The notes under the pieces were generated by a model. That model worked only from the letters and a program-made list of their open reading frames with translations, had not been told where the DNA came from and did not search any database. A program made the translations under genes and the position numbers. 64,000 bases of DNA, taken from assembly GCA_023954475.1 (NCBI GenBank), contig JAMLHW010000013.1, forward strand, positions 62,001 through 126,000, read 5' to 3'. How positions within the stretch are numbered: the stretch's first letter is position 1; the number at the start of each line of letters is the position of its first letter. Below, in pieces: positions 8,262 to 21,720 of the stretch. The DNA comes from Anaerolineae bacterium. GTDB taxonomy: Bacteria; Chloroflexota; Anaerolineae; Promineifilales; Promineifilaceae.

Positions 8262-9890
8262 TTATCTTATCGATATATGAGCGGCTTTCGAAGCGGATAA
8301 ACCTTTATCATTCAGTTCCCCGGCTAGGATGTGATAGAACTGTCTGCGATCCGGATGTTCGTTGGGGTCGTTGAGCCGATAATCGGTTGCATCATAGCGA
8401 CGGCTGTCAGCTTCCAGCGACATCATTTTGAAGACGATGTAGTGATAGGCTTTGCCGCGCCGAATTGCTTCGGCCGAAGCCGGTTGGGGATTTGCCGCCA
8501 AAGATTCCAACATTGCGAAATAGTCATCTCTTGATGATGGTTCACGACACACGCCCAACCCACTGTATTGCGCATTAGCTGCCAGAACAACCGGTTTGCC
8601 CCGAATTGCCATGTCCAGGCCAATATTACTCACCCATGCCAACCCGACATCGATATGGTCAACCAATGCGTACGTATTGACATCGTCTTCACCATGAACG
8701 ACATAAATATTGTCAGCATTCTCGGCGGCAGTCTCAGCCACTTGTCCCAGGCGCACTTTGGCCTGCTTGACAGCTTCATCTGGATGGGCGCGGACGACTA
8801 AATTGTATTCGGGATGGCCCTTGAAAAATGCCACAGTCGTCTCGATCCAGTCGCGTTGGCTGCGAAAAACAGTGGCGCGTCCTAGTGTGGCGCTGTCACC
8901 GACCACGTTGGAGCCTAGCAAAAAGAACTTTCCTGGGCGTTTGAAAAACACGGCTAGGGCAATCGGTAGTTGGGCATCTTTGGTACTGCGCTGCACCTGG
9001 TGAAAGTTGTCTAGCCAATCATCGCCGTTCACCTCATTGCCCTCACGGAAAGCGATATAATCTGCCGCTTCCTGCTCTTTGGTTTCATCCCATTCGCCAA
9101 GTACTTTCAGCCAACCTTCAATATCGTAGTGGAGCGCAGGGCGATTGACGTTCCAGACATTGTGTCCGGGACGCATCGACCAGCCTTCAACGTAGACTGT
9201 CGTGATATCTTTGCGGCTTGCTGCTGCGTAGTAGGCACGTGTATTGGCGATAATGCCGCTGGGGCAAATGATGCGGTCAGTCGGATAGGCGTCGAGTAAT
9301 GTTTCAAATGCAGTCGCATGACGCTGCAACATCGCTTCGGCACGGTTAACAGCTGTTTTGTACGGTTCTTCAGCGTCGCCCGGCTCAAACTCTTCAATAC
9401 GCAAATCGTACGCAGCCAGCATGTGCGCATTACGTCTGGCATATTGTGCATAGTAAGGGTCAGCCGTCGCTGTTTCAAGAAATGGATCGATGTCGACTAG
9501 CGCCACAAACGGAATATCAGCTACGCCTTCCCAAAAAGGATAATCGGCCGATTCGCCACTGTAAAGCGTGTCTATTTCAGAAGACGAGTAGACCAAAATC
9601 GGCCGATAACCCATTTGCAGTAGGTAGCAAGCAGAAAAGGTCGCCCACTCAACCCACCGCCGGTTACGCGTGGCGATCAACATGAGCGTACCTTTTCGGG
9701 GTTCGGGTACATTCCGCACTACGTATTTCCATTGCTCAAGCGCCATACGTGGTGTGCCAATCACCGTCGGCGGTCGGCCGGTTTTCAACTGCATCGCACC
9801 GACGACATCGGTAACGCGACCTTTTAACATCCGCGCTGATGATAATGCCCTGCGAGCCGTTTCATTATTGCGTATATTGGTTATCGCCAC
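8262..9890 (-). CDS. Capsule/surface polysaccharide synthesis protein, GT-B-like
   Basis: This 542-residue protein starts at GTG 9890. The second half contains YNLVVRAHPDEAVKQ followed by IYVVHGEDDVNTYALV and VGLAWVSNIGLDMAIRGKPV. This His-Pro-Asp plus later Ser-Asn-x-Gly-x-[DE] arrangement is seen in capsule polysaccharide synthesis proteins (KpsC/KpsS-like) and CDP-glycerol-type transferases. The N-terminal half has a Rossmann-like start (LMLIATRNRRWVEWATFS). No signal or span is visible, so it should be cytoplasmic. It follows NeuB and may use the activated nonulosonate made by its neighbours, which is an inference. Two octamers lie inside. Confidence 0.6.
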   Translation of the reverse strand: MAITNIRNNETARRALSSARMLKGRVTDVVGAMQLKTGRPPTVIGTPRMALEQWKYVVRNVPEPRKGTLMLIATRNRRWVEWATFSACYLLQMGYRPILVYSSSEIDTLYSGESADYPFWEGVADIPFVALVDIDPFLETATADPYYAQYARRNAHMLAAYDLRIEEFEPGDAEEPYKTAVNRAEAMLQRHATAFETLLDAYPTDRIICPSGIIANTRAYYAAASRKDITTVYVEGWSMRPGHNVWNVNRPALHYDIEGWLKVLGEWDETKEQEAADYIAFREGNEVNGDDWLDNFHQVQRSTKDAQLPIALAVFFKRPGKFFLLGSNVVGDSATLGRATVFRSQRDWIETTVAFFKGHPEYNLVVRAHPDEAVKQAKVRLGQVAETAAENADNIYVVHGEDDVNTYALVDHIDVGLAWVSNIGLDMAIRGKPVVLAANAQYSGLGVCREPSSRDDYFAMLESLAANPQPASAEAIRRGKAYHYIVFKMMSLEADSRRYDATDYRLNDPNEHPDRRQFYHILAGELNDKGLSASKAAHISIR

Positions 9891-9924: not shown

Positions 9925-11430
9925 CTACCAATCTTCCAGTACTGTTTTGCGCACCATCGGATCGCTGCTGGCGATACGTGAATCGTCGTAGTACGAGTCC
10001 CCTTTAATGTGTGTCGTTGACACTTCTTCAAATATGGCACCATTGACGGTGGAGAAACTGTGCCATGCACCGCGTTCAACCAATAGTTTGTCACCCGGCT
10101 TTAAGTGAACTTCTTCACCGTCCAACATAGCAGTCAAATCTCCCCACAGCAATTGGAATGTCTCTTCCTTGATTTTGTGCCGGTGGTTGGGGTGTTTTTG
10201 TCCCGACAACATCACGATCAGTTTTTTGCAGTATTCGCGATTGATCAAGTTGACGATCAATGCGCCGTATTGCCGGAAATGTTCCAGACCGTAGTGGTGG
10301 GACAGTTCGATTTCAAAGTCGTCGCCGATTTCTATGCGGGCTTCGTAGAGCATACCTTTCGCATCGTGAATGATGTGACGGGCAGTGGCAACAGGTGACA
10401 ATGCACGCTGCTCGCAGATTGGCGCATGGGGAGCATAATCACGTGACGCGATCATTGCGCTTTGATAAGTACCACTGGTAGTCTGATTTTCGGCCGAAAC
10501 CGGCATCGCAAAATACACTGAATCCCTGGTCAGCACCTCTCCCTTTCGAATGGGACGCGAAGCATAAACACCACGCGCCAGCGAATCGAGTGAATCCAGC
10601 TCCGCTTGTGTGATGCGCTTGCCCAACCGGCCCGGCTGATTGCCATTCCCGCAAATTGCTTTGGCTTTCAAGGCGGCTGTCACCCATGCATCAACTTGAT
10701 CTGGATTCATCGAATATTTGTTGAGTGTGATCTCATCGGTTGGCACACCGACGTGACGCTCCAGAATGTCTGCTCCTTTGGCCACCGCCATCATGACCAC
10801 ATCCGTTTCGTCCGGCGCTTCATGACCGGAATAACCGACAGGAACATGACGATAACGTTGCTTCATGCGATCGAGGAAATTCAACTGCAATTCTTCGGCA
10901 GGCGTCGGATACAACCCTATGCAATGCATGAGTGCAAAATCGACATGCCGATGTTCAAAGAAACTGTAAACATTGTCAATATCATCGATACTCTTGCCGG
11001 CGGTGGAACAAATTATCGGCTTACGCGTCGCGGCTATCGTTTCCAACAACGGCCAATCGGTGGCACTACAGCTCGCCACCTTGACGATGTCGTAGCCGTG
11101 ATCCATGATATTGCTGACTGATGGCTCGTCAAATGGGGTACACATGGTGAGCATACCCTCATCCCGTACAGCATTAGCCATGACTTGGAACTGGCTTCCT
11201 GTCAGGCGTGTGCTGCGAAATCGAGGCACATGCTTCACGTCATCACGCGTGATGAAATCGGGATGGATGAGGTCTTCAAGGCTGCGATACTGGAACTTGA
11301 CAGCCGCATTGATATTGTGTTTGCGGACAATTTTGCCCATGGCACGAATAATCTTCAGGCCGTGTTCGACGCTCCCCTGATGGTTGTTAGCCATCTCAAA
11401 AATGAACAGATCTAGAAATAAGTCACTCAT
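9925..11430 (-). CDS. N-acetylneuraminate synthase family protein with C-terminal cupin
   Basis: This 501-residue protein starts at ATG 11430, with GGAG 6-7 bases upstream. It opens with LFIFEMANNHQGSVEHGL, the NeuB/SpsE signature (E-ANNHxG). It continues with AVKFQYRSLEDLI, VKVASCSATDWPLLE, and GYSGHEAPDETDVVMMAVAKG before an ERHVG segment, all typical of the PEP-condensing TIM barrel. An SAF/antifreeze-like domain follows (RGVYASRPIRKGEVL). After residue 370 there is an extra cupin-like domain with GQKHPNHRHKIKEETFQLLW. The expected reaction is condensation of PEP with a hexose to give a nonulosonic acid. Which one (sialic, legionaminic or pseudaminic) cannot be told. NeuA lies directly upstream. 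Confidence 0.88.
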   Translation of the reverse strand: MSDLFLDLFIFEMANNHQGSVEHGLKIIRAMGKIVRKHNINAAVKFQYRSLEDLIHPDFITRDDVKHVPRFRSTRLTGSQFQVMANAVRDEGMLTMCTPFDEPSVSNIMDHGYDIVKVASCSATDWPLLETIAATRKPIICSTAGKSIDDIDNVYSFFEHRHVDFALMHCIGLYPTPAEELQLNFLDRMKQRYRHVPVGYSGHEAPDETDVVMMAVAKGADILERHVGVPTDEITLNKYSMNPDQVDAWVTAALKAKAICGNGNQPGRLGKRITQAELDSLDSLARGVYASRPIRKGEVLTRDSVYFAMPVSAENQTTSGTYQSAMIASRDYAPHAPICEQRALSPVATARHIIHDAKGMLYEARIEIGDDFEIELSHHYGLEHFRQYGALIVNLINREYCKKLIVMLSGQKHPNHRHKIKEETFQLLWGDLTAMLDGEEVHLKPGDKLLVERGAWHSFSTVNGAIFEEVSTTHIKGDSYYDDSRIASSDPMVRKTVLEDW

Positions 11431-11488
11431 GATTGATACTCCTGCAAAGCATGTCATTGGTTTTGGCCGAAAAAGATCACCATCGATG

Positions 11489-12565
11489 TCAATTCAAAAG
11501 GGTGGCCAGTTGACTAAGTTGCTCAAATGAAATCAGTTTGTCGTCAATGTAGTATTCAGCTGCCGGTTTTCCGAAATGCAGTTCATGGAAACATACGCCC
11601 CAGGTATGCATCTGGTCTCTCGTGACCGTATCCCAATCGATACCTGTCGCCGAGCCTCGCGCTGTATAGAGAACGATGCGCACTCCACAGTCGTACAGGT
11701 GATTAATGACACTAATCATCTCTTTTCGTGGCGTGGCTAATGCGTAATTGCCGTTGGGAACGAGATTGGCAATGATGCCGTCGATGTCACAGCAGATGAT
11801 CACGTCCTGGCCCTGTGCCAGCTTGTCTCGCAGGCGTTGTGCTGCTGCAATGAATTGATGCGTATCGGCCGAATCAATGGCAACTGCCGCCTGTGCTGCC
11901 TGCAACTGCAACTCCGTGTCAATATCGTAGTTATGCTCCATAACATAGCCCACTATGTTGTGGCCAGTCATCGACTGCTGCTCAAAGATAACCGACGGAC
12001 GCGTTGCATCGATGCAAGCGTTTTGTAAATAGGTGGCGGGTAGTGCTTGCCTCGGCATATTGTATGCGTCCTTGAGGTCGCTATTGACAACCGGTGTCAA
12101 TCTATTATCTTCTGCCATAAACCACATTTTGAATGGGGTTTCCGGTGCGGGCGTCACCGACCGAACTGCATCGACTTCCGGGCGTTGGAGTAAAATGTCG
12201 ACGACATTGTCGATGTCGGTCACATCACGTATTGGATACGTGGGTCGTAGTTGCACCACAACCTCCGGTTCGTACCCTTCATGGAGACGCAACCATTGTA
12301 GCGCGTGCTGAAACACTTCTAAATCTGTCGATTGATCTTGAGAAATGGAAGTTGGTCTCAGGAAAGGTGCCTCTGCACCGTACGAACGAGCGATTTCTGC
12401 ATACTCTTCGCTGTCTGTACTGATGATAACGCGCGTAATTCTCTGCGAGCGTAACGCATGATCAATGGAATGTGCCAGCAGTGGTTTTCCATCAAACAAG
12501 CGAATATTTTTATGTGGGATGCCTTTAGAGCCGCTGCGAGCGGGTATCAGAGCCAATATATCCAC
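11489..12565 (-). CDS. neuA: CMP-nonulosonate cytidylyltransferase fused to a HAD-like phosphatase
   Basis: This 358-residue protein starts at GTG 12565, three bases after the preceding stop. Residues 1-230 are a NeuA/SpsF-type cytidylyltransferase: LALIPARSGSKGIPHKNIR (nucleotide loop), STDSEEYAEIARSYGAE, and QLRPTYPIRDVTDID. Residues from about 255 onwards form a HAD-like domain with CDIDGIIANL (motif I, Asp-x-Asp), VLYTARGS (motif II) and FGKPAAEYYIDDK (motifs III/IV). It should activate the nonulosonic acid made by the downstream NeuB to its CMP form. The HAD part may dephosphorylate a 9-phosphate intermediate, which is an inference. Confidence 0.87.
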   Translation of the reverse strand: MDILALIPARSGSKGIPHKNIRLFDGKPLLAHSIDHALRSQRITRVIISTDSEEYAEIARSYGAEAPFLRPTSISQDQSTDLEVFQHALQWLRLHEGYEPEVVVQLRPTYPIRDVTDIDNVVDILLQRPEVDAVRSVTPAPETPFKMWFMAEDNRLTPVVNSDLKDAYNMPRQALPATYLQNACIDATRPSVIFEQQSMTGHNIVGYVMEHNYDIDTELQLQAAQAAVAIDSADTHQFIAAAQRLRDKLAQGQDVIICCDIDGIIANLVPNGNYALATPRKEMISVINHLYDCGVRIVLYTARGSATGIDWDTVTRDQMHTWGVCFHELHFGKPAAEYYIDDKLISFEQLSQLATLLN

Positions 12566-12568
12566 GTG

Positions 12569-13552
12569 TCATTCTCCGCTGCGCCATTGTGCGATTTCTG
12601 CGAGTCGAGTGGCAATGGTTTCCTGTCGCGATGAGGGTATGTCGCCGGCATGGGACAATGCGTCGCGATACCAGATTTCGGCCGAATCCAGGTCACCTTG
12701 TCGATAATAACTTTCGGCCAACATATAGAACGCTTCGCTATCATCTGGAAACACCGTCAACCACGTTTCAGCAGCCATACGTGCATCATCCCACTTGTTT
12801 TCCGCGAACAACAATAGCGTCATGCGCCGATGCAACCAATGATCCTGCGGCCACTGCAACAAAGCTTCATTCAGCAACGCAAGAGCAGATTCAGGCTCAC
12901 CGGCACTGACAGTCGCATCGATTGTCAGATACCAGTGTTGCGGATTGTGTTCATCCAATTTGCTGGCAGCATATCGTTTGAGTTTGATGCTCTCATCTTC
13001 GAGTCCCCACACCTCATAATCATTCGCGGCACCGACAATATCACGAAGCGGGTTGATGCCGGGCAATATTACCGGCTCCAGTTGGGTTGCGATGTCGACT
13101 AACGTTCGCAACAATGGTGTCTTGCCGGACGCAAACGCATCGTGACGTTGTTGTAATACCGTTTCTGCAGGCAAATCGATCTGCTGCCACAGGATCATCG
13201 TTTCTGAGATGTTGTTGCGCTGCAAGTGGGCGAGACCTTGCCAATAGGCCCACAAGGGATTCGCTGTCGTAACGGGGCCGGCGAGCAATGCATCGATGCT
13301 GTCACAATGCCACAACATACCGGGGAGCCAATGCGCTTGGCTTTCTTCTGCTGTTGATAGGCTGAAATGAGTAGCGCACGTTGTCGGTTGATCAATGTCC
13401 ACGTGGGTGAGTACTGGTTTTGTCGCCAGGACCGAGTCAATGTTTTGATTGAGGCTGGAATCTACAAAGACAATATAGAATAATCCTGCCAGGAATAAAG
13501 CAGCTACTGATACTTTCAATAACAGATTTACTCGGTTTTGGGGCAGGCTCAT
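12569..13552 (-). CDS. Membrane-anchored TPR protein
   Basis: This 327-residue protein has one N-terminal membrane span (about residues 10-30, LLKVSVAALFLAGLFYIVF) and no lipobox, so it is probably anchored with its body outside. The C-terminal third contains TPR-like helices, for example PDDSEAFYMLAESYYRQGDLDSAEIWYRDAL. TPR proteins with this topology often scaffold polysaccharide synthesis or export complexes. That role is inferred only from the location between gmd and neuA. The stop lies 3 bases before the neuA start, indicating a shared transcript. Confidence 0.75.
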   Translation of the reverse strand: MSLPQNRVNLLLKVSVAALFLAGLFYIVFVDSSLNQNIDSVLATKPVLTHVDIDQPTTCATHFSLSTAEESQAHWLPGMLWHCDSIDALLAGPVTTANPLWAYWQGLAHLQRNNISETMILWQQIDLPAETVLQQRHDAFASGKTPLLRTLVDIATQLEPVILPGINPLRDIVGAANDYEVWGLEDESIKLKRYAASKLDEHNPQHWYLTIDATVSAGEPESALALLNEALLQWPQDHWLHRRMTLLLFAENKWDDARMAAETWLTVFPDDSEAFYMLAESYYRQGDLDSAEIWYRDALSHAGDIPSSRQETIATRLAEIAQWRSGE

Positions 13553-13602
13553 TGTGAAAGCGAGGTGTTCACACTGACTCGTTGAATCTAACGGTCAGGG
13601 TT

Positions 13603-14628
13603 TCAAGTGAGGTGATGCGTTGTGACGCGATCAAGACTAGCTGCCTGTGCATCTAAACCGACTTGTTCGAGATCGGCATCTACCATAATGTGAACGAGTT
13701 CACGAAACGCGGTACGCGGCTGCCAACCCAACTGCTCGCGGGCTTTGGTCGGGTCGGCCAAGAGGTAATCGACTTCATTCGGCCGATAATAACGCTCATC
13801 AATCCTTACATATGTACGCCAATCCAACCCCACATAGCCAAACGCCTCATCCAAAAATTCGCGTACCGAATGCGCCTCACCGGTTCCAATCACATAGTCA
13901 TCCGGCGTATCTTGCTGTAGCATCAACCACATGGCCTCAACAAAGTCCGGCGCGTACCCCCAATCCCGTTTCGCATCAAGATTGCCCAGAAAGAGCGTAT
14001 CCTGTTTTCCGGCTACAATAGCGGCAACTGCTCGTGTTATCTTGCGCGTGACAAACGTCTCGCCCCGGCGCGGGGATTCATGATTGAATAAAATGCCATT
14101 ACTGGCATGGATGCCATACCCTTCGCGATAGGTGCGCGTCAGCCAATAGGCGTACAATTTGGCCGCCGCATAGGGGCTTTGGGGCTGAAATGGCGTCGCT
14201 TCATTTTGCGGTGGTGGCGTGCTGCCGAACATCTCGCTCGACGATGCCTGGTAAAAGCGAGTATTAATACCGCTCTTGCGAATCGCTTCCAGCAAGCGCA
14301 CCGTGCCCAAACCGGTCACATCACCTGTATATTCCGGCATATCAAAGCTGACTCGCACATGGCTCTGTGCGGCAAGATGATAGATTTCATTCGGCCGAAT
14401 GTCATACACTAAATCGCTCAAATTCCCTGAACTGGCAACATCGCCATAATGGAGAAACAAACGTGTTTCCGCTTCATGGGGATCTTTATACAAATGCTCA
14501 ATGCGATCCGTATTAAATGTACTGGCACGACGAATCAAGCCGTGAACCTCATACCCTTTTCCCAGCAGAAATTCCGCCAGATACGAGCCGTCTTGCCCAG
14601 TGATTCCGGTAATCAGCGCTTTTTTCAC
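13603..14628 (-). CDS. gmd: GDP-mannose 4,6-dehydratase
   Basis: This 341-residue protein starts at GTG 14628, preceded by GGAG at a good distance. Longer in-frame openings begin inside the upstream gene. It shows [20 protein letters not shown] (the Gmd glycine motif), [15 protein letters not shown], the SSSEMFG catalytic segment, [12 protein letters not shown] with the Tyr-x-x-x-Lys pair, and [18 protein letters not shown], which is nearly diagnostic. It converts GDP-D-mannose to GDP-4-dehydro-6-deoxy-D-mannose, the substrate of the GDP-fucose synthase encoded just upstream. The usual length is about 340-370 residues. Two octamers lie inside the gene. Confidence 0.95.
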
Positions 14629-14662
14629 AGTACTACGCTCCACAGCGGCAGCAAACATCGGG

Positions 14663-15703
14663 TCACTGCGCACTGACGCCATTAGAACGCCGTGCGTCAA
14701 CCAACATCGTGCTTCTATACCATTCGATGGTACGGCGTAACCCTTCCTCAAACGGCATCTGCGATTCAAAACCAAAGTACTCCCAAGCGCGCGTGACATC
14801 CAGTTTGCGGCGCGGCTGACCATTCGGCCGATCTGTATTCCACCAAATCTCACCCTCAAACCCGGTCAATTTAGCAATCGTCTCCATCAAATCGCGGATA
14901 CTGATTTCGTTGCTGCTGCCCAGATTGACCGGTTGACTGTCGTTGTAACGCTCCGCTGCCAACAGGATACCTTCGGCAGCATCTTCCACGTACAAAAATT
15001 CACGCGTCGGTGTTCCGTCACCCCACGCCTCGATTTGCTTGTCACCGCGTGCCTGCGCTTCAATACACTTGCGAATTAATGCCGGAATGACATGGGATGT
15101 TTCGAGATCGAAATTATCTCCTGGACCGTACAGATTCACCGGCAGCAGAAAAATCGAGTTGTACCTGTATTGTGAGCGGTATACTTGCGACTGCACCAAC
15201 ATCATTTTCTTCGATAACCCGTAAGGCGCATTGGTCTCTTCCGGATAACCGTTCCACAAATCGTCTTCGCGGAACGGGATGGGCGCGTACTTGGGATAAG
15301 CACAAATGGTACCGATGGCGACAAATTTGGGCACACCGACTCTGTATGCCTCGTGCAGCAGTTGCACACCCATCATCAGATTTTCGTAGAAATATTCAGC
15401 TTGATGAGCTAGATTGGCACCAATGCCGCCCACACGCGCTGCTAGATGGATGATGACGTCGACAGGATGGTCGCCGGTGGCATCGCTACGCATTGTATCA
15501 GCCAGCAATTGCCTGACAGCATCGATTTTGACCAGATCATATTGATCGCTGCGCGGCACAATGACTTCAGCCGCACCGCGTTCGTGTAGCTTGTTGACCA
15601 CAAATGATCCCAGAAAACCGGCTCCACCAGTGACGATTACGCGTTTGTCACGCCAGTATTGGTGGCTGTCAGGCCATGATTGTGATGTATTTGATGTGCT
15701 CAT
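14663..15703 (-). CDS. fcl: GDP-L-fucose synthase
   Basis: This 346-residue SDR-superfamily protein starts at ATG 15703 with AGGA 7 bases ahead. It has [18 protein letters not shown] for NADP binding, [14 protein letters not shown] (a hallmark of GDP-fucose synthase), [17 protein letters not shown] and [11 protein letters not shown] with the catalytic Tyr-Lys, then [20 protein letters not shown]. It performs the 3,5-epimerisation and 4-reduction that turn the Gmd product into GDP-L-fucose. With gmd next to it, the cluster can make an activated L-fucose. The octamer at about 14824 falls in the C-terminal NTDRPNGQ segment. Confidence 0.94.
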
Positions 15704-15722
15704 CTTTTTTCCTGTTGAGAAA

Positions 15723-17027
15723 TTAGAGTCGAATCACTGTTGCCGCCGGAGACGTATTTAATAAGGCATTGCGCGTATCGACGATTAAACGAGCGTGTTT
15801 ACTCACCTTTTGCCAATCAAATGTTGCATGGTTGGTCACGATGACGACACAATCGGCCGATTCCAATATCGCTTCGCTCAATACCGTCGCCTTCAACTCC
15901 AAGCCTTCATGCACCAGATCCGGTACATACGGATCGCAATACGCTACTTCTGCCCCGCGTTCCTGTAACAGATGAATGATATCCATTGCTGGGCTTTCGC
16001 GCACATCGCTCACGTTGGGCTTGTAGGCGACGCCCAGAATCAGCACACGGCTGCCATTGACAGCCTTGCGCACATCGTTCAGCGCATCGACGACCTTGCC
16101 TACCACGTATTCCGGCATATAGCCGTTGACTTCAGCCGCCAGCTCAATAAACCGCGCGGTGTAGTTGAGTGTTTTCAGCTTCCAGCTCAAATAATGGGGG
16201 TCGATTGGGATGCAATGGCCGCCCAAACCAGGGCCGGGCGTGAATTTCATAAAGCCGTACGGTTTCGTTGCGGCTGCATCTATAACCTCCCACACATCTA
16301 AACCGAGCTTGTCGCACATCAGCGCCACTTCATTGACAAGGCCGATGTTGACAGCGCGGAATGTGTTTTCGAGCAATTTGACCATTTCGGCCGATGCCGT
16401 ACTCGATACCGGCGCAGGATGTTGTACCACCGTGCCATAGAGTGCCAATGCGACGTCGAGACAATCCGGTGTCGTGCCGCCAATCACCTTCGGAGTCGTG
16501 TACATGGTGTAATCCGTACGACCCGGATCGATGCGTTCCGGCGAAAACGCCAGGAAAAAATCGCGTCCCACTTGTTCGCCGTTGAGTGTCAGACGTGGCA
16601 GAATCACTTCGTCGGTGGTGCCGGGATAGGTTGTGCTTTCCAACACGATCAACTTACCGCTGCCCAACTGTGCAATTTCTTCGGCGGCATGGATGATGTA
16701 TGAGATGTCCGGATCTTTTGTCTTGCGCAGTGGCGTCGGCACACAGATCGAAATGGCATCGACTGCTGCCAGGGCGCCATAATCGGCCGAAGCACGCAAA
16801 TGCCCCGACGCGACCAATGGTGCCAGCACAGCCGATGGCACATCCTCTATATAGCTTTCGCCACGCCGTAGACAGGCTACCTTCCGCTCATCGACATCAA
16901 CGCCAACCACTTCGAAACCGACTTCAGCAAATGCCACGGCCAACGGCAAACCGACATAACCCATCCCGACAACACCAACTCTGGCCGACCGGTCTGCAAA
17001 CTTGTCAATCAACTTGTTTTTTAACAT
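15723..17027 (-). CDS. UDP-sugar 6-dehydrogenase (UDP-GlcNAc type, WbpA/WecC group)
   Basis: This 434-residue protein begins [19 protein letters not shown], the NAD-binding motif of the UDP-glucose/UDP-N-acetylhexosamine dehydrogenase family. It has [43 protein letters not shown] and [19 protein letters not shown] with the catalytic Cys. The wording around these motifs ([25 protein letters not shown]) is that of the UDP-GlcNAc 6-dehydrogenase subgroup rather than UDP-glucose dehydrogenase. It should supply a UDP-hexosaminuronic acid for the glycan. It is the first biosynthetic gene after the antiterminator, with a gap of about 170 bases. Confidence 0.92.
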
Positions 17028-17198: not shown

Positions 17199-17702
17199 TC
17201 AAATACGCTCAATGTCGGCTGCCATGAGCTTCACCGGTTGGGGATATTGGCTCAGAAACGCCAGCAACACTTGTACACGGTCGTTGCCAGGAAGTTGCAT
17301 GTCAAACAATGCTTCATATCCTGCAAACAGACCATTGACAATGCGTACTTTGTCACCTTTTTCCAGGCGATCAAATATCAACCCACCGGCTGCATTGATC
17401 GAGTCAACCCGGTACCGCAGTTCGGTTATCAGATGCTGCGGTACGATTGCCGGCTCACCGCCAAAGGTGACAAGACCATGCGTTCCCGGAATCCAGTTGA
17501 GAGTGTTGGGTCCCAACTCCGCCAGATCAGCGCGAACGAAGAGATAACCCGGGAAATATGCGCGTTGTTTAGCCGCACGTGGATTCTTGGGATGGACGCG
17601 AACCATCGGTAAAAAAGGTTCGACAGGATGTGTCAGCAATTGTCTGTAAACAATGCGCTCTTTATGTGGTTTTACACGCAAGGTGTACCATGGGATACTC
17701 AT
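17199..17702 (-). CDS. NusG/RfaH-like transcription antiterminator
   Basis: This 167-residue protein starts at ATG 17702. A longer open reading upstream to 17882 shows no conserved features and covers a likely promoter. The N-terminal NGN domain begins SIPWYTLRVKPHKERIV (the W-Y family start) and contains AYFPGYLFVRADL. The C-terminal KOW domain carries RLEKGDKVRIVNGLFAGYEA. Specialised NusG paralogues of this kind (RfaH, UpxY, LoaP) bind the elongating polymerase and suppress termination in long polysaccharide operons. Its place as the first gene of a unit of about 17 kb supports that role. Its recruitment element was not identified. Confidence 0.88.
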   Translation of the reverse strand: MSIPWYTLRVKPHKERIVYRQLLTHPVEPFLPMVRVHPKNPRAAKQRAYFPGYLFVRADLAELGPNTLNWIPGTHGLVTFGGEPAIVPQHLITELRYRVDSINAAGGLIFDRLEKGDKVRIVNGLFAGYEALFDMQLPGNDRVQVLLAFLSQYPQPVKLMAADIERI

Positions 17703-17810
17703 TTGAAAACACCGTGTTCCGAACTGGTCATATACTGCACCACGACTATTCAATCTTAACAAGCAAGCAGGGACAATGCAATGCCGAGGACTGTTTGGCC
17801 TCGCTAGTAG

Positions 17811-17840
17811 ACTGTATTGATTGAATACTGCGTTTTGCAA
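17811..17840 (-). promoter_or_regulatory. Candidate sigma-70-type promoter of the polysaccharide operon
   Basis: On the minus strand a TTGCAA element (17840-17835) is followed after 18 bases by TACAGT (17816-17811). The implied transcript would start near 17804, leaving a leader of about 100 bases before the antiterminator ATG at 17702. The match to consensus is moderate and no experiment supports it. Confidence 0.35.
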
Positions 17841-18068
17841 TGCGGCAGAAGTGTGGCTCACAACAACCGCCGTGCGGAACAAATAGATATGTAAAGATTA
17901 GAGCAGTTGCTAACTCATATGCTTGCGGAACTATCCGCACCTGTTTTACTTCATGATTTGCGTATTGTAGCCACTAATTCTGACAACTTGTCTTACGGTT
18001 GTGAATTTCAACCAAATTTACGATCTTTTTGCGCAGACCGCTGGGACTCGGTCACAGTTTGCCCAGAA
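17841..18068. other. Non-coding stretch between the antiterminator leader and the sulfation operon
   Basis: With the flanking promoter and terminator, bases 17703-18147 contain no convincing gene on either strand. The stretch is AT-richer than its neighbours. A lone TACAAT on the minus strand (17969-17964), with no good -35 element, could be an additional weak start. No tRNA, small RNA or ops/JUMPstart-like element was recognised. Confidence 0.5.
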
Positions 18069-18122
18069 GTAAAAAAAGACGCTCAGTCACACTGAATGCA
18101 TCATCAGATAACTGTGCGTCTT
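18069..18122 (-). terminator. Intrinsic terminator after the sulfation operon
   Basis: Read on the minus strand, AAGACGCACAGT (18122-18111) pairs with ACTGAGCGTCTT (18087-18076). This makes a 12-bp stem with a single A-A mismatch and a 23-base loop, directly followed by a run of T residues (18077-18071). It lies about 25 bases after the sulfotransferase stop. It separates the sulfation genes from the polysaccharide operon, which therefore needs its own promoter. Confidence 0.85.
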
Positions 18123-18147
18123 GAATTCTCACCCGAAAATGGGTGTA

Positions 18148-18750
18148 TTAGGTGGCGCGATTGCGGTATAAGTTGGGATCGACGACATTTGCCATCGCTT
18201 CTGTGTCGAGTGTGCTGCCCAGGAATTGGACAATCTGAGGCAACTGCCCCATGACATTGCTCAGCAAATCGTTGTAATTGACGTCGAGTAAGGTCACGTT
18301 GGGTTGTTGGTTGACCCAACCGTAGACTTGTTGCAAATGCTTGCGGTAGAGTGATTTGAGTTCGTCGTCGCTGACGCCTGATTCTTTCTGGCGGTTGTCC
18401 AGCATTTTTGCTTGCGAGGCCAGAATCTCATCCAAATCACGTCGCATGAACAGGATGCGGTACTCATAGTCGGCAGGTAGATAGCGCAGCAGCGCCGAAA
18501 TCACTTTGACCGATTTGCCCTGGGCGTCGGCTACCCAGGCGGTATCGCCTTTGTCGAGTTGTTTGACGCGTTCGTACTCATAATAGCCTTTGGGATTGTC
18601 AGAATCGGGTGTGCGAATACCGTCCTGAATGGGGTCAATGCCGCCTGCTTCGAGCATTTTCATCATCATCGATGTGCCGGAACGCGGCAAGCCGGAGACG
18701 ACGGTGACAAATGGCTGTTCTTTCTTTCGGCCGAATAACTTCTTAAACAT
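18148..18750 (-). CDS. PAPS-dependent sulfotransferase family protein
   Basis: This 200-residue protein opens with VTVVSGLPRSGTSMMMKML, the 5'-phosphosulfate-binding loop of sulfotransferases (PRSGTS), near residue 20. A later segment, YRILFMRRDLDEILASQAKM, matches the 3'-phosphate-binding region with its conserved Arg. It is shorter than most sulfotransferases (about 250-300 residues) but keeps both PAPS-contact regions. It lies 5 bases after the cysN-cysC gene in the same transcript, so the PAPS made there is the natural donor. The acceptor may be the surface glycan encoded downstream, which is an inference. No signal peptide is seen. Confidence 0.85.
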   Translation of the reverse strand: MFKKLFGRKKEQPFVTVVSGLPRSGTSMMMKMLEAGGIDPIQDGIRTPDSDNPKGYYEYERVKQLDKGDTAWVADAQGKSVKVISALLRYLPADYEYRILFMRRDLDEILASQAKMLDNRQKESGVSDDELKSLYRKHLQQVYGWVNQQPNVTLLDVNYNDLLSNVMGQLPQIVQFLGSTLDTEAMANVVDPNLYRNRAT

Positions 18751-18755
18751 CGTTT

Positions 18756-20741
18756 CTATCCTGTCTGGCGGGGAATGATCCCCTGTGCTATCAAATAATC
18801 CACGATCAATTGCGCATTGACTTCCGGCGTGTTGTGTGCCGAATCGATCCTCAACTCGGGATGTTGTGGCGCTTCATAGGGCGACGAAACACCGGTAAAT
18901 TCCTTGATCTCGCCACGCAGCGCCCGCTCGTACAAGCCCTTGGGATCGCGCCGTTTACACACTTCCAAATCGCACTGCACGAATATTTCGACAAAGCGAT
19001 TCGGCGGCAGCAACGACCGCGCAAAATCGCGATCGCGCTGGAACGGCGAAATGAAGCTGCATAGCACAATATTACCATGAGTGAAGCTCAATTTGGCGAC
19101 TTCGGCCGTACGGCGGATGTTTTCCTGACGTGCTTCGGCCGAAAAGCCCAAATCGCCGTTCAACCCGTGACGCAAATTGTCACCATCGAGCAATTGCGCC
19201 TGAAAACCCAGGTCAAACAGACGGCGTTCGACCAACCTGGCAACGGTTGATTTGCCGGAGCCGGAAAGACCCGTCAACCACAGCACAGCCGCTTTGTGCC
19301 CATTGCGTTCTTCTCGCATGTGACGCGTCACATCACCCTGTTCCCAAACGACATTGGTCGAACGCTGTGTGTCGCCGTCGCTTTCGGCGATACCGATCTC
19401 GGTGCTGTCAATTTCACCCGTGACCAGATCGGCAACCCGTCGTGATTTGCCGCGAATGATGCCGGCGGCGACGGTATTGTTGCTGTAGGGGTCAATCAGG
19501 ATAAATGAGCCGGTGGCGCGGTTGAGTTGGTAACGATCATAGAACAGCGGGCGGGCAGTGGTGAGCTGAATTCGGCCGATTTCGTTCAGTTGCAGCGTTT
19601 CAGCCGCTTCGCGATGCATCGTATCCACATCGATTTTGTAATTCAGCTCCGAAATGTATCCCTGCACCCGCCGCGTCGTGTGTTGCACCCAATAATTACC
19701 GTCGGGATTCAACGGTGTTTCGCTCATCCAGCACACAATGGCATCGACTTTGTCGCTCTTTTGCGGCAGATTGTGCGTGCGCACAATCATGTCACCGCGA
19801 CTGATGTCGATCTCGTCTTCCAGCGTCATGATCGCCGCATCACCGCTTACTGCTTCGGCGATCTCTTCCTTAAAGAAGTGCAGTGCCTTGACGCGTGTGC
19901 GCTTGCCGGATGGCAGGACGACGACTTCTTCACCCGGTACGATGCGGCCACTGGCGACTTGCCCGGCGAAACCGCGAAAATCCTGATTCGGCCGAACGAC
20001 ATACTGTACCGGAAAACGAAAGTCAACCATATTGCGATTAGCGCCTACATTCACGTTTTCCAGATAGTGGAGCAGCGTCTGCCCGTCGTACCATGGCATG
20101 TTGCTACTTTTTTCGACCACATTGTCGCCTTTCAAAGCTGAAAGGGGAATGTAATCGATGGCGTGTACGGACAATTTAGCTGCAAACTCTGTGTAATCCT
20201 CGACAATGCGTTCGTAGACATCTTCATCAAAATCGACGAGGTCCATCTTGTTGATCGCGACGAGAATGTGCGGGATTTGCAGCAGCGACGCCAGGAATCC
20301 GTGTCGCTTTGATTGAGTCAACACCCCTTTGCGCGCATCGATCAGGACAATAGCCGCTTCGGCCGAAGAAGCGCCTGTTACCATATTGCGCGTATATTGA
20401 ATATGACCCGGCGTATCCGCAATGATGAATTTGCGCTTCGGGGTAGCAAAGTAACGATACGCCACATCGATAGTAATCTTCTGTTCGCGCTCAGCACGCA
20501 ATCCGTCAGTGAGCAGCGCCAAATCGATAGTTTCATCACCGCGCAGTTCACTGGCGCGCTCAATCGCAGCGTACTGATCTTCAAATATCGATTTCGTGTC
20601 GTACAGCAAGCGACCGATCAAGGTACTCTTGCCGTCGTCCACACTGCCGGCTGTCGTAAAACGCAGCAGATCAATTGATTCCAGACTTTCCGGCGTCGTT
20701 TCCACCACCGGCTCATTCATTTCTCGTAGTTGTACACTCAT
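18756..20741 (-). CDS. cysNC: Bifunctional sulfate adenylyltransferase subunit 1 / APS kinase
   Basis: This 661-residue fusion has an N-terminal part (about 25-460) that is the CysN GTPase: TAGSVDDGKSTLIGRLLYD (P-loop), ADTPGHIQYTRNMVTGAS (G3) and NKMDLVDF (G4), then beta-barrel domains. From about residue 475 it is APS kinase: LWLTGLSGSGKSTVARLVE, DGDNLRHGLNGDLGFS and ISPFQRDRDFARSLL. It drives ATP plus sulfate to APS together with CysD, then phosphorylates APS to PAPS. No reductase gene is nearby and a sulfotransferase follows, so the PAPS is likely for sulfation rather than cysteine synthesis. Confidence 0.96.
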   Translation of the reverse strand: MSVQLREMNEPVVETTPESLESIDLLRFTTAGSVDDGKSTLIGRLLYDTKSIFEDQYAAIERASELRGDETIDLALLTDGLRAEREQKITIDVAYRYFATPKRKFIIADTPGHIQYTRNMVTGASSAEAAIVLIDARKGVLTQSKRHGFLASLLQIPHILVAINKMDLVDFDEDVYERIVEDYTEFAAKLSVHAIDYIPLSALKGDNVVEKSSNMPWYDGQTLLHYLENVNVGANRNMVDFRFPVQYVVRPNQDFRGFAGQVASGRIVPGEEVVVLPSGKRTRVKALHFFKEEIAEAVSGDAAIMTLEDEIDISRGDMIVRTHNLPQKSDKVDAIVCWMSETPLNPDGNYWVQHTTRRVQGYISELNYKIDVDTMHREAAETLQLNEIGRIQLTTARPLFYDRYQLNRATGSFILIDPYSNNTVAAGIIRGKSRRVADLVTGEIDSTEIGIAESDGDTQRSTNVVWEQGDVTRHMREERNGHKAAVLWLTGLSGSGKSTVARLVERRLFDLGFQAQLLDGDNLRHGLNGDLGFSAEARQENIRRTAEVAKLSFTHGNIVLCSFISPFQRDRDFARSLLPPNRFVEIFVQCDLEVCKRRDPKGLYERALRGEIKEFTGVSSPYEAPQHPELRIDSAHNTPEVNAQLIVDYLIAQGIIPRQTG

Positions 20742-20814
20742 ATAAACGCCTGCTTATTCACACAAAGAGCACAGAGAAAACAAGGCAACACACCTTGCTC
20801 TGTCCCTTTTTTGA

Positions 20815-21720
20815 CTAAAAGTAACCTTGTTTCTTGCGGTCTTCCATCGCCGCTTCTGACCGCTTGTCATCCGTCCGCGCCCCGCGTTCCGTCACGCGTG
20901 CCGATGACACTTCAGCAATGATGCTGTCCAAATTGGCGGCCGGGGATTCAACCGCGCCTGTACACGTCATGTCGCCGATTGTGCGGAAGCGCACCACCCG
21001 ATTTTCTATCGGTTCACCGAACTGCGGGAAAGTCACCTCAGACACTGCCAGCAACACCCCGTCGCGCTCAAACACATCACGTCGGTGCGAGAAATACAGG
21101 TTGGGCAGTGTAATATTTTCCAGTTTGACATATTGCCATACATCCAATTCGGTCCAGTTGCTCAACGGGAAAATGCGGAATCCTTCACCGTCGTGTTTGC
21201 GGCCATTGAACAAGTTCCACAGTTCTGGACGCTGATTTTTCGGATCCCACTGCCCAAAGCGATCGCGGTGCGAGAAAAAACGCTCCTTGGCACGGGCTTT
21301 TTCTTCATCGCGCCGCGCGCCGCCAATCGCTGCTTCGAACTTAAACTCCTTCAACGCATCGAGAAGCGTCACTGTCTGCAATGCATTGCGACTGGCATAA
21401 GGGCCGGTTTCTTCCTGCACGCGCCCCTGATCAATCGAATCCTGCACATAGCGCACAATCAGGCGCGCGCCGACTTCTTCCATGTAGCGATCGCGGAATG
21501 CAATCGTTTCAGGGAAGTTATGCCCTGTATCGACATGTAATAATGGGAACGGGATACGGGCAGGGTAAAATGCCTTCTGCGCCAGATGTACCATGACGAT
21601 GGAATCTTTGCCGCCGGAAAAGAGCAACACGGGACGCTCAAACTGGGCGGCCACCTCGCGCATGATGTAAATTGCTTCAGATTCAAGTTGTCGTAAATGC
21701 GATCGTCTATAGGAGTTCAT
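20815..21720 (-). CDS. cysD: Sulfate adenylyltransferase subunit 2
   Basis: This 301-residue protein has the PP-loop LLFSGGKDSIVMVHLAQKAF near residue 33, then LLHVDTGHNFPETIAFRDRY and AIGGARRDEEKARAKERFFS. It ends with the family's characteristic tail, ERGARTDDKRSEAAMEDRKK followed by QGYF. It forms the ATP sulfurylase with CysN, encoded 73 bases downstream. The length matches the family norm. There are no octamers between about 20360 and 22048, an unusually long gap for a gene of normal composition here. Confidence 0.97.
   Translation of the reverse strand: MNSYRRSHLRQLESEAIYIMREVAAQFERPVLLFSGGKDSIVMVHLAQKAFYPARIPFPLLHVDTGHNFPETIAFRDRYMEEVGARLIVRYVQDSIDQGRVQEETGPYASRNALQTVTLLDALKEFKFEAAIGGARRDEEKARAKERFFSHRDRFGQWDPKNQRPELWNLFNGRKHDGEGFRIFPLSNWTELDVWQYVKLENITLPNLYFSHRRDVFERDGVLLAVSEVTFPQFGEPIENRVVRFRTIGDMTCTGAVESPAANLDSIIAEVSSARVTERGARTDDKRSEAAMEDRKKQGYF

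Follow-up and report, generated by a model that had tools for sequence, protein, structure and literature searches.

Possible four-step synthesis of a deaminated, CMP-activated nonulosonic acid by a NeuB-cupin and NeuA-HAD gene pair

Two neighbouring genes in the window (i.e., the whole stretch of 64,000 nucleotides that was analysed), one encoding a NeuB-type synthase with a C-terminal cupin and the other a NeuA-type cytidylyltransferase fused to a HAD phosphatase domain, may together encode the four steps that lead to a deaminated nonulosonic acid activated with CMP, CMP-Kdn being the likeliest; this reading is given an even chance. The cupin would produce mannose 6-phosphate by isomerising a ketose, of which fructose 6-phosphate is the likeliest; the attached NeuB barrel would make Kdn 9-phosphate from mannose 6-phosphate and phosphoenolpyruvate (PEP); the HAD half of NeuA-HAD would remove the phosphate of Kdn 9-phosphate; and the NeuA half would make CMP-Kdn. 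In the window's organism, the product would become part of a polysaccharide that is probably sulfated; in many Lachnospiraceae, it would be attached to flagellin via Maf. The presence of the cupin, already described in an earlier note on this DNA, is borne out; what that note missed, and what is new here, is that the domain looks like an isomerase, which would supply the likely hexose source. The pair is organized as follows:

11489..12565, minus strand: NeuA-HAD gene, 358 codons, GTG start with GGAG upstream
11882..12565, minus strand: NeuA-type CMP-nonulosonate synthetase domain, residues 1-228 (PF02348 match)
11489..11818, minus strand: HAD phosphatase domain fused to NeuA, residues 250-358 and stop codon (from motifs and fold)
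9925..11457, minus strand: NeuB-cupin gene, 510 codons as called
11439..11443, minus strand: AGGAG, probable ribosome-binding site of NeuB-cupin, read from the sequence
10630..11430, minus strand: NeuB-type synthase barrel, residues 10-276 (PF03102, 147.5 bits)
10423..10575, minus strand: SAF/antifreeze-like segment, residues 295-345 (weak PF08666 match)
9925..10404, minus strand: cupin domain, residues 352-510 and stop codon, D-lyxose/D-mannose-isomerase-like

Both fusions, as described earlier, are confirmed by domain profiles and conservation. Since AGGAG (11443-11439) lies 8 nt ahead of Met10 of NeuB-cupin, the likelier start would be 11430 (Met10), giving a protein of 501 aa.

In the NeuB-cupin protein, Pfam finds NeuB and Cupin_2 together with Lyx_isomer (29.7 bits, cut-off 20.8, over some 40 positions). 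With the isolated cupin of the window, Lyx_isomer (PF07385) reaches 33.8 bits, the match again spanning about 40 positions, and this model is matched at E <= 0.001 by 35/35 members. Alignment to group-1 lyxose isomerases with hhalign gives 99.6% and E 1e-24 over 141 columns. Against the PDB, the best matches of the cupin profile are 2y0o (1.4e-19) and 7nzo (3.6e-18), the next family following at 7e-13; the window cupin as a single sequence matches quercetin dioxygenases (9.5e-8) better than lyxose isomerases (1.9e-5), and isomerases rank first only by profile and by fold. In Foldseek searches with a structure model of the cupin (pLDDT 94.8), the top matches are all sugar isomerases (10/10). 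The fold Z is 19.8 to 7nzo over 145/159 residues; aldose-ketose isomerases span 19.8-15.1, and values of at most 13.3 follow.

Conservation was assessed in 100 NeuB-cupin proteins, namely 82 cellular and 18 viral ones; the latter represent 12 distinct sequences, and the L113 protein ends at residue 474 with its contig. K412, H427, K430, E432 and H466 of the cupin are present in 100/100 and E478 in 99/99, while H425 is His in 89/100, including the window's protein, and Gln in 11/100. In this order, these residues align with K62, H77, K86, E88, H143, E156 and H75 of the Thermofilum enzyme TsLI, which contact the sugar or Mn (excerpts of PMC8378251). The window cupin thus keeps 7/8 sugar or metal contact positions of TsLI; the eighth, D163, is unconserved in the alignment and falls on K485, with an invariant D487 two residues further. 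Group-1 D-lyxose/D-mannose isomerases (2y0o and 7nzo, i.e., TsLI) have the fold, the metal ligands, the catalytic Lys and Glu, an N-terminal extension and a C-terminal segment in common with the cupin, which differs from them in being attached to a synthase and in lacking about 20 residues that they have inserted ahead of motif 2. Judged by its profile, its fold and its active-site residues, the cupin looks like a D-lyxose/D-mannose-type aldose-ketose isomerase domain.

The nature of these relatives bears on the carbon number of the substrate. The least probable of the readings considered is a pentose route, in which xylulose 5-phosphate would be isomerised to lyxose 5-phosphate and an eight-carbon ulosonic acid 8-phosphate, an isomer of Kdo, would be made, dephosphorylated and CMP-activated. 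It has against it that characterised NeuB-family members use six-carbon aldoses and that the acids on which Maf enzymes are known to act have nine carbons. It is favoured by the nearest relatives of the cupin being the lyxose isomerases 2y0o and 7nzo, the latter, from Thermofilum, being highly lyxose-specific (excerpts of PMC8378251), and by the closest solved HAD among the matches listed, 9iqw (fold Z 12.7), which according to its title is a phage D-arabinose 1,5-diphosphate phosphatase. A Kdn synthase, however, rejected arabinose 5-phosphate (excerpts of PMC6200933), and the argument from Maf is tempered by the C. botulinum enzyme accepting Kdo (excerpts of PMC11339370).

Regarding the synthase, E21, K54, Q56, T107, K126, Y183, S210, H212, E233 and H235 of the barrel are present in 100/100 members, and the catalytic PEP and aldehyde residues of canonical synthases are thus kept. 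R58, H65, R79 and R295 are likewise found in 100/100 and are candidate ligands of the 6-phosphate. The specific models score below their cut-offs on the window's protein (TIGR03569 NeuB_NnaB, 137 bits against 399.65; TIGR03586 PseI, 114.9 bits against 340.25), as does PF08666 on the SAF segment (17.4 bits, cut-off 21). The closest solved relative of the barrel is 3g8r (E 3.9e-94, residues 15-362), a NeuB-like 'probable spore coat polysaccharide biosynthesis protein E' which is cupin-free, its 350 residues leaving no room for such a domain. In the meningococcal NeuB, Arg314 of the antifreeze-like domain places the N-acetyl group (excerpts of PMC6795526). Its position is Met318 in the window's protein, M in 81/82 and A in 1/82 cellular members and W, F, M, I or P in the 18 viral ones, hence never R or K among the 100; in 17 canonical controls, it is basic in 9, non-basic in 2 and a gap in 6. 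The position of N. meningitidis D247 is N246 in one alignment and Asp in another and is left out of the argument. The NeuB domains of NeuB-cupin proteins group in a clade of their own (100/100), outside which the tested canonical synthases fall. The supply of NeuB by a ketose isomerase, taken with the loss of Arg314, suggests an aldose with a 2-hydroxyl, which would give a nonulosonate without a 5-acetamido group. By extension, this aldose would be a phosphorylated mannose, with steps ordered as in the Kdo pathway, and Kdn would be the product.

These residues can be set against an ordinary product of the Neu5Ac, Leg or Pse type, which is unlikely but stands ahead of the pentose route; its precursor would come from elsewhere in the genome and the cupin would be regulatory, structural or product-modifying. 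The loss of Arg314 and the separate clade argue against such a product, as do the preserved metal ligands (one being Gln in 11/100) and catalytic Lys and Glu of the cupin, since a regulatory role would not need them. Among 25 carrier genomes chosen by hand and searched with curated models, NeuC, LegB or PseB is found over cut-off in 13, which favours this alternative, and all three are below cut-off in 12, the window's own included, which does not. Runella sp. MFBS21 and Xanthocytophaga flavus are examples of carriers in which none of the three exceeds its cut-off. In its favour, too, the NeuA domain scores best with PseF (TIGR03584; 129.6 bits, below the cut-off of 205.7), and a second NeuA/NeuB set is present in two loci (L045 and L076). 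A NeuC adjoining the pair was considered and set aside, NeuC-like matches being found in 2/82 loci (the same two) with a query that is weak because it matched in only 2/14 canonical NeuB loci. LegB-like matches, mostly weak SDR ones, occur in 18/82 NeuB-cupin loci vs 7/14 controls, which are from other taxa.

The earlier remark that no epimerase is seen in the window is consistent with searches of the own genome, where the one Epimerase_2 protein is on another contig and scores 88 bits with the NeuC model (cut-off 235.9). The remainder of a sialic, legionaminic or pseudaminic pathway, for which a search had been proposed, is absent over cut-off from this genome as regards NeuC, LegB and PseB, a LegB-like protein scoring just below (430 bits against 475); one NeuB and one full NeuA are found in the genome searches, both being those of the pair. 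An isomerase in the cupin would explain the missing epimerase, because it offers a probable origin of the hexose and makes an epimerase unnecessary. Type I phosphomannose isomerase is found in 16/25 carrier genomes, the own included, and these cells therefore need not use the cupin for mannose 6-phosphate.

In NeuA-HAD, CTP_transf_3 (PF02348) matches with 88.4 bits against a cut-off of 22.6; R10, G12, S13, K14 and D216 of the NeuA domain are found in 40/40 fused proteins and D214 in 39/40. The HAD core motifs, all of them present according to the earlier note, are confirmed: D260 and D262 of the catalytic DxD, G263, T301, K333 and the D341-D342 pair are identical in 40/40 fused proteins, the window's included, so that the proposed check for missing catalytic residues did not refute the phosphatase reading and a degenerate HAD can be discarded. 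In the family libraries, the HAD end of the whole protein weakly matches the EcbF-BcbF capsule phosphatase model TIGR01689 (18.7 bits, cut-off 162); the isolated domain reaches 22.8 bits, likewise under the cut-off, and a match at E <= 1 is obtained for 40/40 HAD domains. From its motifs, the domain is predicted to remove the phosphate of a nonulosonate 9-phosphate. The packing of synthesis, dephosphorylation and activation into two proteins, as suggested earlier, is favoured by the conserved active sites and the gene pairing; its phosphatase step we still infer.

NeuA lacks HAD in 14/82 cellular loci and a HAD relative was found in 0/14 of the corresponding genomes, an empty search which is weak without a positive control; if so, HAD would be dispensable or have a substitute there. 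This could fit a free-sugar route, an improbable reading placed between the two alternatives above, in which fructose would be converted to mannose and then to Kdn and HAD would serve another step, e.g., on a sugar bisphosphate, or limit phosphorylated by-products. Free fructose or mannose is no usual cytoplasmic intermediate, which counts against it, as do the fusion of HAD to NeuA in half of the loci and the separate HAD gene that L030 and several viral contigs have beside or close to NeuB-cupin. While characterised lyxose isomerases do use free, unphosphorylated sugars (excerpts of PMC8378251), the Kdn synthase tested needed mannose 6-phosphate (excerpts of PMC6200933). This use of free sugars also counts against the mannose 6-phosphate reading, as does the Thermofilum enzyme showing less than 2% activity with mannose (excerpts of PMC8378251).

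Returning to the phosphorylated Kdn route, NeuA-HAD lies near NeuB-cupin in 41/82 cellular loci from six phyla, 40 being found by ORF and one more (L079) having been missed by the ORF filter. With the 45% identity filter, L092 (NeuA 40%) was classed as having none and L081, whose NeuA is cut by the locus end, as having NeuA only. In loci with the fused pair, NeuA-HAD and NeuB-cupin invariably share a strand; the two overlap or lie at most 200 bp apart in 27/40, the widest gap being 2.7 kb. A frameshift or sequencing artefact joining NeuA and HAD, the other check proposed earlier, is ruled out by the conservation of the fusion in these 41 loci. HAD matches are found in 45/82 NeuB-cupin loci vs 0/14 canonical NeuB loci, the controls being from other taxa. 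Another 22 loci have neither NeuA nor HAD; in 16 of those genomes that were searched, a NeuA match (51-59% identical) is present elsewhere in 15, and in 11 it is in one frame with HAD. The own phylum does not appear to be the main home of NeuB-cupin, another full-length protein being found only in G448 among 400 sampled genomes. Cultured carriers include Anaerocolumna sedimenticola and a Runella sp. Plasmid and phage records gave no match covering 80% of NeuB-cupin.

The surroundings of the pair point to its likely use:

8262..9890, minus strand: Capsule_synth (PF05159)-like protein, directly downstream (39.8 bits, cut-off 20)
12569..17027, minus strand: further genes of this polysaccharide locus, upstream of the pair, comprising the next four
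12569-13552, minus strand: TPR protein (TPR matches)
13603-14859, minus strand: Gmd (gmd, 531 bits, over cut-off)
14663-15703, minus strand: GDP-fucose-synthase-like protein (GDPFucSynFcl, 279 bits, under the cut-off of 500)
15723-17027, minus strand: nucleotide-sugar dehydrogenase (NDP-sugDHase, over cut-off)

The pair is part of a locus for a polysaccharide that is probably sulfated. A homologue of the PF05159-like protein, 49% identical, immediately follows NeuB-cupin in an Anaerolinea locus (L039), and homologues of 34-35% follow it in two Bacteroidota loci (L117 and L114); from this arrangement, it is a candidate nonulosonate transferase. Against the PDB it gave one match at E 0.93 and nothing useful. 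Maf or flagellin matches are found in 40/82 loci, and Maf matches in 38/82 NeuB-cupin loci vs 0/14 canonical ones (controls from other taxa); many Lachnospiraceae have flagellin and Maf genes beside NeuB-cupin, and one ORF consists of a Maf-like part fused to NeuA.

More broadly, and only tentatively, NeuB-cupin and NeuA-HAD could, as two bifunctional proteins, form a pathway that is widespread and complete in itself, leading to CMP-Kdn from fructose 6-phosphate, PEP and CTP. The cupin would then be an integral phosphomannose-type isomerase that arose from lyxose isomerases. The pathway would provide Kdn for the glycosylation of flagellin by Maf in Lachnospiraceae, as well as for the polysaccharides of Chloroflexota and other groups, and would be a main unrecognised source of environmental bacterial Kdn. 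If the pair makes Kdn, the signature of NeuB with an isomerase cupin and NeuA with HAD predicts Kdn producers in six phyla or more, and the pair would offer both a way to synthesise CMP-Kdn from fructose 6-phosphate with two enzymes and a simple supply of the donor for flagellin glycosylation by Maf. If true, the question of which sugar NeuB-cupin makes is reduced to one single-protein assay.

In the literature searched, which lies outside most subscription journals, no paper was found on a cupin together with a nonulosonic acid, and NeuB, cupin and sialic acid synthase occur together only in a Haloquadratum expression study; among the papers listed for a wider set of terms, none mentions lyxose isomerase and this study alone mentions cupin. 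The main text of a Clostridium flagella paper (PMC13317340) mentions no cupin, HAD, Kdn, NeuA, phosphatase or Lachnospiraceae. A precedent for the chemistry is the pathway from mannose 6-phosphate through Kdn 9-phosphate and Kdn to CMP-Kdn in Bacteroides thetaiotaomicron and Prymnesium parvum, which has the same steps as proposed here, needs no epimerase and uses Kdn-9-P synthase, Kdn-9-P phosphatase and CMP-Kdn synthetase as separate proteins; an isomerase is unmentioned in the excerpts available (PMC6200933). The B. thetaiotaomicron Kdn-9-P phosphatase 3e81 (E 0.025) and KdsC are weak Foldseek matches to the window's HAD domain, and the HAD-fold domain of the mammalian CMP-sialic acid synthetase 3ewi is a marginal one (E 0.035); KdsC, Kdn-9-P phosphatase and the CMAS C-domain are all absent from its best 50 fold matches and may rank below these. 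The mammalian protein has a NeuA-type domain followed by a C-terminal HAD-fold domain, as in NeuA-HAD; its HAD-fold domain is of the KdsC type and is not known to have phosphatase activity. In the Kdo pathway, KdsD, KdsA, KdsC and KdsB act in this order as ketose-aldose isomerase, PEP condensation enzyme, HAD phosphatase and CMP transferase. The proposed pathway would follow the same order of chemistry, with a cupin isomerase and a HAD type from other families, NeuB and NeuA in the place of KdsA and KdsB, and four activities combined in two proteins.

The two proteins, with isomerase (cupin), synthase (NeuB), phosphatase (HAD) and CMP-nonulosonate synthetase (NeuA) as their predicted activities, are encoded on one strand within the polysaccharide gene cluster of the window, and both domain make-up and active-site residues give good support to the proposal of two proteins and four activities. 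The features concerned are:

11489-12565, minus strand: NeuA-HAD, inside the polysaccharide gene cluster
9925-11457, likely start 11430, minus strand: NeuB-cupin, after NeuA-HAD with a short gap between
8262-9890: PF05159-like protein, directly downstream of NeuB-cupin
17199-21720: NusG-domain protein, sulfotransferase, EF-Tu-like GTPase plus APS kinase protein and PAPS-reductase-domain protein, at the cluster's upstream end

Both fusions, described from the window alone in the earlier note, are real. Scanning 84,980 species genomes with an alignment of two sequences yielded 351 relatives, and NeuB and cupin parts are both present in all of the best 80 retained, which together with the window and L030 (a further cellular locus) make up 82 cellular loci. 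The NeuA-HAD fusion can be found within 41 of them, beyond the window in Bacillota, Chloroflexota, Verrucomicrobiota, Bacteroidota, Gammaproteobacteria and one Peribacteraceae genome. NeuA without HAD occurs in 14 loci (including L092), NeuA with a separate HAD in two (L030 and L104, in the latter apparently split by an assembly frameshift), and a HAD piece only, in a frame starting with the end of NeuA, in two more, as judged by eye (L052 and L106); in L081 NeuA is interrupted by the end of the locus. The remaining 22 loci have neither, and a NeuA match 51-59% identical lies elsewhere in 15 of the 16 genomes searched among these, 11 times with HAD in the same frame, the L100 genome alone giving no match. 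At L108:6935-8020 identity is only 33% in the NeuA part and 51% in the HAD part, and L106:7-708 is similar, a different NeuA lineage apparently being joined to the same HAD; this HAD may thus have fused with NeuA of two lineages, implying a second fusion event. This NeuB is also present in 19 viral contigs (L119-L137), with a cupin in 18 proteins representing 12 distinct sequences. Separately, Synechococcus phage and marine virus records (H34-H47) contain regions sharing 33-41% identity with the cupin, all inside residues 397-501, and lying where annotated in nucleotidyltransferase, heptose epimerase or cysteine dioxygenase features.

The assignment of the cupin as an isomerase is the strongest new result. 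Identity to the window's protein is higher in the cupin than in the barrel for 77 of the 81 other cellular proteins and 14 of the 18 viral ones. A profile of 35 diverse cupins aligned by hhalign with five group-1 D-lyxose isomerases, taken from related genomes and including the one encoded by the window's organism, at 99.6% (E 1e-24, 141 columns). Searched against the PDB, the profile retrieved two solved lyxose isomerases first (1.4e-19 and 3.6e-18) and quercetin dioxygenase as the next family (7e-13), whereas the window's single cupin sequence gave the reverse order (quercetin dioxygenase 9.5e-8, lyxose isomerase 1.9e-5). All 35 cupins match Pfam Lyx_isomer at E <= 0.001, as they do the general Cupin_2 model; AraC_binding matches 11, Cupin_3 seven and MannoseP_isomer five. 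With the domain modelled by AlphaFold (pLDDT 94.8), the Foldseek top ten consists of lyxose isomerases and an E. coli sugar isomerase, and a second structural aligner gave Z 19.8 to the Thermofilum enzyme 7nzo (rmsd 2.0, 145 residues), 19.2 to 2y0o, 18.1 to 3kmh and 15.9 to L-ribose isomerase, the remaining matches, led by a Thermococcus phosphomannose isomerase, reaching at most 13.3. A stand-alone group-1 D-lyxose isomerase homologue is also encoded in the genome of the window's organism, on contig 25 (L187).

Contacts named in the Thermofilum report for bound mannose or fructose are K62, H75, H77, K86, E88, H143, E156 and D163 (PMC8378251). Seven of these named contacts correspond, by hand count in the profile-PDB alignment, to K412, H425, H427, K430, E432, H466 and E478. 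K412, H427, K430, E432 and H466 are invariant in all 100 proteins and E478 in 99 of 99, one further protein being cut short, while the H425 position is Gln in 11 of 100. D163, as named there, aligns with K485; two residues further, D487 is invariant in 99 of 99.

For an aldose-ketose isomerase to act, C2 of the aldose must bear a hydroxyl, and this carbon ends up as C5 of the nonulosonate. The presence of an isomerase within the synthase protein thus points to a 5-hydroxy acid (Kdn, should mannose be the aldose) rather than an N-acetylated acid. The synthase barrel retains the NeuB catalytic residues. Arg314 of meningococcal NeuB positions the N-acetyl group of ManNAc (PMC6795526); its position is Met in 81 and Ala in one of the 82 cellular proteins and never basic in the 100, while 17 canonical controls have a basic residue there in nine cases, another residue in two and a gap in six. 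The NeuB-cupin clade, which also includes cupin-less 3g8r-like proteins, stands apart from the canonical set with support 100/100, and the rows nearest to the window's NeuB are from Chloroflexota, a phylum in which the window may therefore have its origin. Six cupin-less relatives of this clade (L031-L036), five with an adjoining thiamine-pyrophosphate-type enzyme (named by eye) and none with a NeuA seen nearby, may make a different product. Among 25 NeuB-cupin genomes hand-picked from the 82, curated models found NeuC in seven, LegB in six and PseB in six over cut-off, and none of the three over cut-off in 12, including the window's own genome, where a LegB-like protein scores slightly below cut-off and searches found one NeuB and one full NeuA, the fused one. 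Kdn is the best inference for the product, although unproven.

Regarding the destination of the sugar, searches with Pfam MptE-like and Flagellin proteins gave a Maf-like match in 38 of 82 loci, flagellin in 34 and either in 40. One locus, from Butyribacter intestini, has both parts in one frame:

L059:3812-6139: Maf-like part (MptE-like, Maf_flag10_N) followed by NeuA, 776 codons

These neighbours and this frame suggest that the CMP-sugar is the Maf donor in such bacteria, and the Maf-like flagellin glycosyltransferase part of L059 may carry its own donor-making enzyme. The window has a polysaccharide cluster with sulfate-activation genes, from which gene set its polysaccharide is probably sulfated; upstream of NeuA-HAD are a TPR protein, a GDP-mannose 4,6-dehydratase, a GDP-fucose-synthase-like protein and a nucleotide-sugar dehydrogenase. 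The PF05159-like protein, with homologues directly following NeuB-cupin in an Anaerolinea contig (49% identity) and lying after it in two Bacteroidota loci, could be the transferase that uses the new CMP-sugar.

All 40 fused proteins keep the HAD motifs intact. The domain lies near the EcbF-BcbF phosphatases, the window's scoring below that family's cut-off, and its closest solved protein is 9iqw (profile E 1.3e-21, structural Z 12.7), entitled a phage D-arabinose 1,5-diphosphate phosphatase; some sugar phosphate would fit as substrate. A separate HAD gene adjoins or lies near NeuB-cupin in L030 and several viral contigs (L121, L124, L125, L131 and duplicates), which supports a link of HAD to the synthase as well as to NeuA. 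The genomes of all 14 loci having NeuA without HAD gave no HAD relative, which counts against an essential role, and other phosphatases may replace it there. A comparable case is P. parvum, for which no clear homologue of the Kdn-9-P phosphatase is reported and substitution by other phosphatases is argued (PMC6200933).
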